DNA from: Rhodopirellula sp. | GTDB taxonomy: Bacteria; Planctomycetota; Planctomycetia; Pirellulales; Pirellulaceae | Direction of reading: 5' to 3' | Length of the DNA: 64,000 nucleotides | Assembly: GCA_002689655.1 (NCBI GenBank) | Contig: NZHC01000076.1 | Coordinates: forward strand, 62,001-126,000 | Part shown: one piece after another, positions 38,486 through 43,532 of the stretch | Layout: each line of letters opens with the position of its first letter | How positions within the stretch are numbered: the first letter of the stretch is position 1 | Position numbers and translations under genes: made by a program | Notes under the pieces: generated by a model | The model's input: the letters and a program-made list of their open reading frames with translations, nothing else | The model's database searches: none | Told to the model about the DNA's origin: nothing

Positions 38486-39760
38486 TTACGCCACCAGTTC
38501 ACTGATGATCTTTCCACCACCTGCGATTTTCATTGGACGACCATTCTTACTTGTAAACGTTTTCTCAGTTGAAATACCAAGACCTTTGCAAACTGTGGTC
38601 ATCAAATCCTCGCTGCTGAATGGCTCGCTTTCGACAGCCGTACCGTCACTGCTAGTCTCACCAACGGCGAGACCACCATTGATGTCACCACCACCGACAA
38701 CGCATGACCATGAACGTGCCCAGTGATCGCGACCAGCATTCTGGTTGATCCGCGGTGTGCGACCAAATTCACCCATCCAGATGACGACAGTGTCTTTCAA
38801 CAGCTCTCGCTGGTTGAGATCCTCAACCAAGGCGCTCATGGCCCGGTCAAGTTGTGGCAACTTAGTATCCTTGAATAAAGCGTGGATACCGCCATGGTTA
38901 TCCCACCCCCCAAGATCAACCTCAACGAATGGAACACCAGCCTCAACAAGACGCCGAGCCAGCAGACAACCTTGCCCAAAACGGTCTGTACCGTACCGCT
39001 CCTTGACCTCTTCTGGCTCCTTCTCAACACGAAACGCTTCCATCTGATCGCTCGTCATCAGATCAAAAGTCTTCTTCAGAACCTTAGCGTGCTCGCTGGC
39101 AGGCAGATCTCGCGTTCGTTTGGAGAAGCCGGTCTCAATCGTATCCAAGGCGGCCATTCGCTGAAGCAAACGATTGTCCTCAAGATCCATTTTCAAGTTC
39201 CGGATCTGTCCATTGCTGGTTACCGAGAACGGTGACCAAGCCATGCCCAAAAACCCTGGCCCGGCACTAGCTCCACCAACCGAAACGAATGGAGGGATCT
39301 CAAGGTTCGGACGCTGGTCCATCACTTCGTGAGCGATCACCGATCCATAGCTGGGGTGCTCGATGTTTGGATTCGGGACATAACCTGTATGCATGTAGTA
39401 CCGCCCACGGTTGTGATCAGCCTCACGCGTCGACATGCTTCGCACGACCGACAGATGCTTCATCTGCTGAGCAACCATCGGCATGTGCTCACAAATTTGC
39501 AAGTCGCCCGTGGTTGAAATTGGCTTGAACGGGCCACCGGTAGGCGCGCCAGGCTTGAGATCCCAGATGTCAATCGTTGCCGGTCCACCGCCCATCCACA
39601 ACAAGATTGCTGACTTGCCATTTTTTCTCATCTCATCAGCATTTGCCTTGATGGCACCACCCATCGTCATGGATGCCGTTGCAACTGCGGAGGAGCCAGC
39701 GAGGTGCTGCATGAAATGGCGACGTGACATCCCGTTTGGAGTTTGCCAGTTGTTGAACAT
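38486..39760 (-). CDS. DUF1501 domain-containing protein (Tat-like leader)
   Basis: MSRRHFMQHLAGSSAVATASM; ILLWMGGGPATIDIWDLKPG; IWMGEFGRTPRIN. Confidence 0.92.
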   Translation of the reverse strand: MFNNWQTPNGMSRRHFMQHLAGSSAVATASMTMGGAIKANADEMRKNGKSAILLWMGGGPATIDIWDLKPGAPTGGPFKPISTTGDLQICEHMPMVAQQMKHLSVVRSMSTREADHNRGRYYMHTGYVPNPNIEHPSYGSVIAHEVMDQRPNLEIPPFVSVGGASAGPGFLGMAWSPFSVTSNGQIRNLKMDLEDNRLLQRMAALDTIETGFSKRTRDLPASEHAKVLKKTFDLMTSDQMEAFRVEKEPEEVKERYGTDRFGQGCLLARRLVEAGVPFVEVDLGGWDNHGGIHALFKDTKLPQLDRAMSALVEDLNQRELLKDTVVIWMGEFGRTPRINQNAGRDHWARSWSCVVGGGDINGGLAVGETSSDGTAVESEPFSSEDLMTTVCKGLGISTEKTFTSKNGRPMKIAGGGKIISELVA

Positions 39761-39832
39761 ATGAAGTAGCCTTTAAGGAAGAGAGGTTTTTGTTCGGTTT
39801 GAATACTTGAAAGATGGAAGCTCGCGGCAGAA

Positions 39833-41494
39833 TCAGTGCTGCATGATGAATTCATTGCTGTTCAGGATTGCCCACCACATGTCCTGTAACATTTCTTTTT
39901 CTTTACCCTTCCGTGCGATCAGTAGTTTGCTTGCGATCGTCATTTCGTTCCTGCTGGGTCGTCGGGCAAGCCCGGCGAGAAACAGTTCGTTCACTCGATC
40001 ACGAGGTGATTTCCCGGTCTTCGACAGTCGGTCAATGAAACTTCCACCAGACGTGCTGATTGCTTTCTTCGTTAAGTCACCATTGAACAGCATCAGTGCC
40101 TGTGGGATCGAACCGTTGAAGGTTGTCGCTTCGTCGCCTTCGTCGGTGCCGAAAGCTACGACAAACTGCTGCAACCAACGATTCCGCTGCCGTTCCTGCT
40201 CTTCGTAACTCCCTTGCGAGGTAGCATCGGTGGCAGTCACGAGTGACTGATAAAGTTGCTCAGCGCTCATTTGACGCAAGTAGAACCGGGAGAACTTTGG
40301 CATCTCTCCGATAGACGGATCATCGATTTCATTGTTTGATCCCAGGACAGGAGCGAGATTGTAAGGTCGGCTCAAGGTAATCCATGTGATCAATTGCTTG
40401 AGGTCATAACTGTTCTTGCGAAACTCGGCAGACAGCTTTGCCAATAACTCAGGATGTGACGAAGGATTGTGCGGTCCCAAGTCGTCCACTGGTTTTGTGA
40501 ATCCGAATCCGAGGAACAGCGACCACATTCGATTGACACCCATTTTGTCCATATTTTCGCTAGCCAACATCATCCGCCCAAGTTCGCTTCGGCGTTTGAT
40601 ATCACTTACAAAACCACTGACACCAATTGCAGTTCCGTCGGTGAAGACAGGGTAGGCGACACGAGTAAGTCCGTTCCGAAGTTCGTAGAAAACCAATGCA
40701 TCTTCGGGGTCATTTGCCTCACCAGCAAAATCTTCATCGATCAATTCTGCGTGATCGATATCACGCGTGCCGTCAACGAAACGTCGCAACGAGCGTGTCT
40801 GCCGGAAGAACGAATTGAACTCCCAAAACATCTGCTGCTTCCACTGGTTGAATGGGTGATTGTGGCACTGAGTGCACTGCACTTGCTGCCCAAGGAAGAT
40901 CCGCGAGGTACTGCTGGTCGCAAGTACACCCTTTTCTTCATTCACCTTATCGATCAGAAAGTTAACAGCTCCATTAAAGTTGTCTGTACCGGGCTTGGTT
41001 GATCCCGTCGCGGTAACCAAATCAAATACGATTCGGTCGTAGGGCTTGTTTCGCGCAAACGAATCGCGCAGATACTTTTTCATCCCTGCGCGACTGATCA
41101 TCGAATCCCGAGCATTGCCACCTGATTGACCAATGAGAATGTTGGTCCAAACCGTCGACCAATGACTGGCATACTCCTCGGTGTATTTATCATCGTATAG
41201 GAGAGTATCGATGAGGGCCGCACGCTTGTCCTTGCCTTTAGCAGCCAGAAACTCGGAGAGTTCACTTTGGCTAGGCACGCGTCCGATCACGTCAAGAAAA
41301 ACACGGCGACACCAGCTCGAGTCATCGACTTCGGGAGCCGGCCGAATTTCGAAATCTCGCCAACCCTGCTCGATCATCTCATTGATCATCGTGACTTGGC
41401 TAGGGACCACGGTTTCGGCAGCCTCCGATTTCCCAAGAGGCAGCAGAGATCCTAGAAACAGCACTGCGGTCAGGATCGTTGAATATCGCGTCAT
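39833..41494 (-). CDS. DUF1549/DUF1553 planctomycete protein
   Basis: FLDVIGRVPSQSELSEFL, QVQCTQCHNHPFNQWKQ, NRMWSLFLGFGFTKPVDDLGPHN. Confidence 0.92.
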   Translation of the reverse strand: MTRYSTILTAVLFLGSLLPLGKSEAAETVVPSQVTMINEMIEQGWRDFEIRPAPEVDDSSWCRRVFLDVIGRVPSQSELSEFLAAKGKDKRAALIDTLLYDDKYTEEYASHWSTVWTNILIGQSGGNARDSMISRAGMKKYLRDSFARNKPYDRIVFDLVTATGSTKPGTDNFNGAVNFLIDKVNEEKGVLATSSTSRIFLGQQVQCTQCHNHPFNQWKQQMFWEFNSFFRQTRSLRRFVDGTRDIDHAELIDEDFAGEANDPEDALVFYELRNGLTRVAYPVFTDGTAIGVSGFVSDIKRRSELGRMMLASENMDKMGVNRMWSLFLGFGFTKPVDDLGPHNPSSHPELLAKLSAEFRKNSYDLKQLITWITLSRPYNLAPVLGSNNEIDDPSIGEMPKFSRFYLRQMSAEQLYQSLVTATDATSQGSYEEQERQRNRWLQQFVVAFGTDEGDEATTFNGSIPQALMLFNGDLTKKAISTSGGSFIDRLSKTGKSPRDRVNELFLAGLARRPSRNEMTIASKLLIARKGKEKEMLQDMWWAILNSNEFIMQH

Positions 41495-41828
41495 CGTCGC
41501 TAAATTCCTTGGCGGTGTTTTTTGATCGTCTGTAGGCTGAACGAACCACGTTGGAGCATGTACCCACAACGTGCAATAGAACAGTCATTTATTCTATTCG
41601 AGGACTTGGCGGTCCTCAAACAGATAACCGGGATAGAACGTTTGATAAAAGCACCGGAAATGCAGGCTTTTCCGGTAAGTCGGCCCAAACAGGGCCCTTT
41701 CAGCAGGTGAACCGACAATCAGCGTCTAAAACGCCTCTTTTTTTCACAGCAAGAGCGGAAAACACGAAAGTCCAGAGAATTTCCTCAGGACGCCGCCCTC
41801 ACTAGCGAGAACAGCCTGTTCAGCTACC

Positions 41829-42428
41829 TCAGGATTCCGCAACTTTATCACTGATCGACTCCAGCAAGTCCCAGCTGGCACCATCAGTTTCAGCGTTCCA
41901 AAGATCTGACAACTCTTCACCGCTGATCAGGCTCTGAACAACCCAAGCCATGGGATCTGGAATCACAATGGCAATCTGCTCGGTACCACTCTTTCGAAGC
42001 ACCTTCCGAATGGCCTTGGCAACACGATCACGCGCATCACGAATTGACTCACCACCTGGAGGACAAACATCCGAGGGTGAATCCTGACCCTGCCGATAGA
42101 CCTTTGGATGGTTTCGCCGTACCTCTTCGATCAGCTTCCCATGCCACAGTCCATGATCCACGTTTCTGAAGGCGTCGATGACTTTGATCCGTATCTCGCG
42201 TCCCTGAGCGAGTTGCTGTGCAGTTTCACGAGCGGATTCGCAGGGGGCGGTGTAAATTGTCGCTACGGGAAAATCAGAGAGTTGCTCAGCGAGAGAATTG
42301 ACCTGTCTTCGGCCTCGCTCGCTCATCGGCATATCCAGCGTGCCCTTGATACGCCCCTGATCATCAAAGTCAGTCGCACCAGGTCTTATTAGTAAGACTC
42401 GGGAAGCTAAAGGTGTTCGGACAATCAC
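41829..42428 (-). CDS. histidine-phosphatase-fold protein, catalytic His residues absent
   Basis: LLIRPGATDFDDQGRIKGTLDMPMSERGRRQV; GTG start overlaps rpe stop with ggagg SD. Confidence 0.75.
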   Translation of the reverse strand: MIVRTPLASRVLLIRPGATDFDDQGRIKGTLDMPMSERGRRQVNSLAEQLSDFPVATIYTAPCESARETAQQLAQGREIRIKVIDAFRNVDHGLWHGKLIEEVRRNHPKVYRQGQDSPSDVCPPGGESIRDARDRVAKAIRKVLRKSGTEQIAIVIPDPMAWVVQSLISGEELSDLWNAETDGASWDLLESISDKVAES

Positions 42429-43153
42429 GAGTGATCCTCCCGTTTCAACCCTCGTACCGACTCGTTGCGTGCAGCAGTCTGAATCCCGGCGTTCAAGTCG
42501 GCAATCGCTGCCAGATAGCTGTCCTGGCGGAAAATCGCTGACCCAACCACAAACAGATCGCATCCCGCAGCACGAGCCAAACTGATGGTATCGACGCCGA
42601 TCCCCCCATCAATCTCAAGCAATAGGTCGGGATAGTCCTGCCGCAGAGAGCGTAATTTTTCCAAAGCAATCGGATTGAAGGCCTGCCCGCCAAAGCCTGC
42701 CTCGACACTCATGACCAAAGCCATGTCGACCATGGAAATTGCGTCCCCAAAAGACGCCAGCGGAGTCTCGGGATTCAATGCAATCCCAACACCGACACCC
42801 AAGTCCCTGAGCTTACCTGCAGTTTCAACCGGGTCACGGACCGCTTCGACATGGAAGGTAAGCATGTCTGCACCGGCATCCACCATCGGCTTCGCGTAAG
42901 CCAGCGGATCAGTAATCATTAAGTGAACATCCAGAGGAAGATCAGTGTGCCGACGAAGTCCTTCCACAATCGGCATTCCATACGTCAGGTTGGGAACAAA
43001 GTTCCCATCCATCACATCAAGGTGCAAAACACGCGCACCCGCGGCAGATAACTCAGCCACCTCACCTTTCAAATCCCCGAAATCACAGAGCAACAGGCTA
43101 GGCAGCACTGCTGGCGCTGAATCTCGAATCGCTTGTAACGCGGCGGTTGCCAT
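42425..43153 (-). CDS. rpe: ribulose-phosphate 3-epimerase
   Basis: VLPSLLLCDFGDL, HLDVMDGNFVPNLTYG, DVHLMI, MSVEAGFGGQAF, EIDGGIG. Confidence 0.95.
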   Translation of the reverse strand: MATAALQAIRDSAPAVLPSLLLCDFGDLKGEVAELSAAGARVLHLDVMDGNFVPNLTYGMPIVEGLRRHTDLPLDVHLMITDPLAYAKPMVDAGADMLTFHVEAVRDPVETAGKLRDLGVGVGIALNPETPLASFGDAISMVDMALVMSVEAGFGGQAFNPIALEKLRSLRQDYPDLLLEIDGGIGVDTISLARAAGCDLFVVGSAIFRQDSYLAAIADLNAGIQTAARNESVRGLKREDHS

Positions 43154-43532
43154 ACAGTTTGATCTCATTGAGTGTCGACACCCTGTGCGATCTTCGCAAG
43201 CAAAGCTCGGATCACAGCAGGACCAAATCGGGGTGACAGATTGGTCTCAAGGGGTGCTGCTTGTCAATTCCGCCGAGGCAAGACACCGCCCCCCTTTTGG
43301 GTGATCATTGGCCTTAGTTCGCAACTTTACCGCTGTTTGCACGTGATTTCCCCTTTAAGAAGGGGTGCTAAAATTCCATTAAATTTCGCTATTTTCCCTG
43401 CATTCGATCGCCCTTTCACAGCAGGTGACCCCGATCAACCATTCACAGCCTGAACGGCCTACCCTTTTTCCACCGCTAGCCCAACAGTGACCGCCACATC
43501 CAGCATGCCTCAGAATCTGCCTCGCGTGTCCA

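Follow-up and report, generated by a model that had tools for sequence, protein, structure and literature searches.

A conserved family of probable histidine-phosphatase pseudoenzymes at the rpe–accD locus of Planctomycetota

The window, a 64,000-nt stretch of a Rhodopirellula sp. contig (NZHC01000076.1), carries directly after rpe a gene for a protein related to histidine phosphatases, referred to below as the pseudo-phosphatase (Table 1). The gene start was found as given in the preliminary description, with the GTG codon overlapping the TGA stop of rpe and a Shine–Dalgarno-like stretch inside rpe. A four-base overlap with rpe, ATGA or GTGA, is common to most of the window's genus; outside the genus it gives way to gaps, commonly of 10–100 bases, and strict translational coupling is therefore local and not family-wide. 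Thus, the earlier proposal that the protein is made in step with Rpe could hold in the window and in most members of the genus, and does not hold as a rule for the family. A promoter and terminator scan of the region gave nothing above chance (two hairpins found versus 1.8 expected). The rpe gene of the window is the single Rpe match found in its genome; in four other genomes (G074, G085, G089 and G108) we saw second copies of the Rpe domain (PF00834) in open frames of ∼576–586 aa, which suggests a fusion of Rpe with a further domain.

Table 1. Genes and sequence features around the pseudo-phosphatase gene (window coordinates)
Feature	Position	Strand	Description
Pseudo-histidine-phosphatase gene	41829..42428	-	199 aa plus stop; GTG start
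rpe, ribulose-phosphate 3-epimerase	42425..43168	-	247 aa; PF00834 2.2e-62; TIGR01163 219.2 bits (cut-off for Rpe, 212.6 bits)
GTGA shared by the rpe stop and the pseudo-phosphatase start	42425..42428	-	read in sequence
GGGAGG Shine–Dalgarno-like stretch	42436..42441	-	inside rpe 3′-end, 7 nt before GTG
Terminator-like hairpin	41652..41677	-	∼150 nt past pseudo-phosphatase stop
Downstream neighbour, where accD sits in other planctomycetes	39833..41569	-	open reading frame; presumably DUF1549-like

Of the five pocket residues that are classical for histidine phosphatases, the protein lacks four. Motif I reads LLIRPGATDFDD, with RHG changed to RPG and the first catalytic histidine (His1) replaced by P16. 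The segment of the second histidine is AIVIPDPMAW; upon alignment to canonical proteins the His column falls on P157, followed by D158-P159. These two losses had been recognized in the preliminary description; two more had been missed, namely the second pocket arginine (canonical SSPLxRAxQTA), which is S65, and the acid glutamate (canonical L.E...G.WEG), which is N89. Only the arginine of RHG is kept. The window's genome was found to contain four further histidine-phosphatase paralogues, each with both histidines in place.

We searched for close orthologues with an intact RHG motif and found none: in an alignment of 91 rows from distinct genomes (A2; 78 Planctomycetia and 13 from other classes) the phospho-accepting histidine is present in 0/91 orthologues, and the second pocket histidine and the second pocket arginine in 1/91 each. 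At the acid position all 78 Planctomycetia copies have Asn, while Glu is found in 12 of the 13 copies from other classes; P159 is likewise invariant in the 78 Planctomycetia. Catalytic residues are thus lost in essentially every planctomycete carrying the gene at the rpe/accD locus; the rpe- or accD-linked copies are dead, while genome hits elsewhere, as read at the best loci, have RHG and the second histidine. The one orthologue with the second histidine (locus L210, genome G483) is half-dead, having Pro for His1 (RPAETAW) along with VLHP, and could be an intermediate.

The fold has apparently been retained. The match to PF00300 (His_Phos_1) scores 128.4 bits against a cut-off of 21.7 (E 3.5e-37), which places the protein in the branch 1 homology family; the score for the PspA equivalog NF045917 was 102.1, below the cut-off of 350. 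An AlphaFold model built on A2 (pLDDT 93.6, pTM 0.90) has the alpha/beta phosphoglycerate-mutase-like fold, and its best PDB matches are PspA (4ij6, TM 0.83), PhoE and related phosphatases. Still, none of the features that mark a branch 1 enzyme, His1, His2, the second Arg and the acid Glu, occurs in the window protein; loss of catalytic residues under purifying selection in many species is what was found, as expected of a pseudoenzyme.

Conservation was ranked over 197 positions within Planctomycetia. N89 came second, T19 fourth and P159 seventh, with G17, P16 and R15 at ranks 27, 37 and 39; the columns of the second arginine (S65) and of the second histidine (P157) ranked just 86th and 76th, so some of the old pocket can vary freely. 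The rebuilt pocket is described by the motifs RPGxTx[FY]D, N[LVI][DN]xGLW[QH]G, PPxGE and PEPLA. This pattern suggests an old active site that was remodelled and then largely fixed within Planctomycetia.

A match was observed in 58 of 60 relatives searched, with open frames free of internal stops in most of them, and a search with one motif alone confirmed 364 stretches across 84,980 species genomes. Named carriers include Rhodopirellula baltica, R. europaea, R. sallentina, Stieleria and Neorhodopirellula. Among close relatives dN/dS was ∼0.03–0.06 for the pseudo-phosphatase versus ∼0.06–0.14 for rpe of the same genomes (NG86, meaningful for pairs with unsaturated dS only); the values for the pseudo-phosphatase are mostly below those for rpe. 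That the window protein is, judged by its sequence, catalytically dead and under selection, as the preliminary description had it in the first of these respects, is strongly supported, and its sequence argues against hydrolysis through a phospho-histidine. Recent decay, a sequencing error or a wrong reading frame could in principle imitate a dead enzyme; however, the same losses occur in 91 genomes of several classes, frames are open in most relatives and dN/dS is low. We found no support for such an artefact; the orthologue survey and dN/dS rule it out, and its probability is practically negligible.

In a maximum-likelihood tree of 63 proteins (midpoint root; canonical sampling mostly planctomycete) the dead proteins and the canonical paralogues are split with support 100/99 and one state change. 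With PspA and two paralogues from the window's own genome added, and the active-site columns removed, the split between dead and canonical proteins had support 99/96. The dead copies of Planctomycetia form one group (support 99/95), the order among dead copies of other classes being unsettled. One early loss would be in keeping with the tree. The simplest reading would be that catalysis was lost once, before Planctomycetia parted from several other planctomycete classes, and that the change of Glu to Asn came later, on the Planctomycetia stem. An independent origin of the dead forms in other classes was considered and is unsupported, as all dead copies group apart from the canonical proteins.

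Turning to the gene neighbourhood, the typical order elsewhere is rpe, pseudo-phosphatase and, directly after it, accD (acetyl-CoA carboxylase carboxyltransferase beta); a Ser/Thr kinase gene is frequently next in line. We scored 106 dead loci, three further loci being left unscored on one side where the contig end was too close. Both rpe and accD flank the gene in 67 of them (21 families); rpe is the sole neighbour of the two in 31 (six families, the window's clade included) and accD in eight (six families), and none of the 106 has neither. One hit with neither gene beside it (L196) proved to be a canonical RHG protein. The accD gene was found beside the pseudo-phosphatase in 37/41 named loci (L111–L151), 23/26 order-level and 29/30 class-level loci, and in 14/14 loci outside class Planctomycetia. 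Other conserved neighbours (ScpB or GAPDH upstream) occur in subsets only.

Across the Rhodopirellula clade, none of 39 named loci shows accD beside the gene. The window's genome has accD on a separate contig (G000:C131:14852-15655; L252:2406-3309), with a Ser/Thr kinase gene after it, and this pair looks like the displaced half of the cluster; the cluster has therefore been split between the pseudo-phosphatase and accD. The place after the pseudo-phosphatase is occupied in this clade by a gene pair (38486-41569 on the reverse strand of the window) which we take to be DUF1549-like and DUF1501-like. The preliminary description could see rpe alone because accD has moved away in the window's clade, and the link that it drew to Rpe and sugar phosphates in particular is too narrow, given that accD is an equally regular neighbour and that eight dead copies have no rpe beside them.

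The middle gene is dispensable in some planctomycetes. No match to it was found in many genomes of family f23, and rpe and accD are directly adjacent, with no pseudo-phosphatase, in many planctomycetes (for example G425, G549, G337, G358, G405, G471 and G454; in G099, too, it is missing between the adjacent pair). Thus, the locus is better written as rpe-[pseudoHP]-accD, with the gene as an optional member. The direct rpe–accD pairing by itself spans many planctomycete families; we found no explanation for it, and a literature search found no description of an rpe–accD link, which is not proof of absence. Rearrangements have removed the rpe neighbour in six families and the accD neighbour in six. 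Such breaks cannot pick a partner, since after any one break the gene still has one neighbour at its side.

Taken together, we favour, with a probability of about 0.6, a conserved non-catalytic branch 1 pseudoenzyme in the rpe–accD housekeeping locus; its remodelled pocket probably binds a metabolite or a protein. An ancestor of Planctomycetota would have lost the phospho-accepting histidine, the second histidine and the second pocket arginine; in Planctomycetia the acid glutamate would additionally have been swapped for an invariant asparagine. The fold would have been kept, and the old active site rebuilt and then largely frozen, in a gene that presumably belonged to an rpe-pseudoHP-accD(-Ser/Thr kinase) locus. 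The accD–kinase half would have gone elsewhere in the clade of the window, leaving rpe and the pseudo-phosphatase with their four-base overlap. Most likely the protein no longer hydrolyses phosphate; its remodelled pocket would instead take up a ligand or dock a partner protein, making it a non-catalytic modulator of a pathway served by the neighbouring genes. A binding or regulatory role, as had been suggested earlier, can reasonably be inferred, and by analogy with the inactive flea XcAP proteins the favoured candidate is a modulator of the rpe/accD pathways that would bind a ligand or a protein.

Which neighbour such a modulator would serve is a matter of weaker claims. The protein could regulate acetyl-CoA carboxylase via AccD, with the old active site perhaps serving as sensor for a fatty-acid or CoA-pathway metabolite. 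The accD gene lies downstream in all loci outside the class and in nearly all of the class set and of L111–L151, a Ser/Thr kinase gene is often next, and a fatty acid is bound at the dead site of a flea pseudo-phosphatase (PMC10728186); however, the window's whole clade has no accD nearby, and, since rpe and accD also adjoin each other when the gene is absent, it may merely sit between genes linked otherwise. We consider this version unlikely. The protein could also be a subunit that regulates or stabilises Rpe in particular, made in step by translational coupling; this would fit the four-base overlap seen in the window and across most of the genus, the retention of rpe in 31 loci after accD left and the single rpe of the genome. 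Yet the overlap turns into gaps beyond the genus, the eight dead copies with accD and no rpe come from six families, and many planctomycetes run rpe with no pseudo-phosphatase at all, which makes such a subunit quite unlikely.

The remodelled pocket might also have acquired a new catalytic activity. Around it stand the invariant polar residues N89, T19 and E127 and a mostly conserved R15; but the old His positions have gained no invariant His, Cys or acidic cluster, and none of P16, P157 and P159 brings an obvious catalytic group, so a neofunctionalised enzyme seems very improbable. Returning to the preferred non-catalytic pseudoenzyme, one could speculate further, on a scenario that is itself rather improbable, that a phosphatase fold disarmed early senses a metabolite via the rebuilt pocket and adjusts acetyl-CoA carboxylase and/or Rpe, which would connect the flow of pentose-phosphate carbon with fatty-acid synthesis in Planctomycetota.

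What we describe is a bacterial family of histidine-phosphatase pseudoenzymes that is well conserved and that databases annotate as phosphatase. The dead family scores well above the Pfam cut-off, and phosphatase function is not assignable from a profile score alone. The pseudo-phosphatase evolves at least as slowly as the adjacent housekeeping enzyme. It also opens to direct test a possible connection of a central-carbon enzyme with acetyl-CoA carboxylase and an unexplored protein.

A literature search found no described planctomycete or bacterial branch 1 pseudophosphatase, which is not proof of absence. In fold the window protein is like PspA of Hydrogenobacter thermophilus (4ij5/4ij6) and PhoE (1h2e), all of branch 1; it shares with PspA, its nearest relative of solved structure, 28% identity and the IDHGxWxG and GGES segments. 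In the pocket it is unlike PspA, which keeps His1, Arg2, Glu and His2, while only the first Arg remains in the window protein. Cf60 of Dictyostelium, a branch 2 pseudophosphatase that is inactive and acts in a complex (mentioned in PMC7926622), is also a phosphatase-like protein, but it belongs to a eukaryotic secreted complex and differs in branch and context. The closest precedent in substitution pattern is given by the flea XcAP proteins of branch 2, in which the His of RHG is changed to Gly and the second His to Ser or Pro; they were shown to have no phosphatase activity and to bind amines, and a fatty acid was modelled beside the substituted catalytic residues (PMC10728186). Both catalytic histidines are replaced and the fold is kept there as here; however, the XcAP proteins are secreted animal proteins of the acid-phosphatase branch with no operon, whereas the window protein belongs to branch 1 and to a bacterial, phylum-wide family. 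The histidine-phosphatase pseudoenzymes that we found described are eukaryotic, and the present family would add a bacterial one, spread over a phylum and apparently of single origin.
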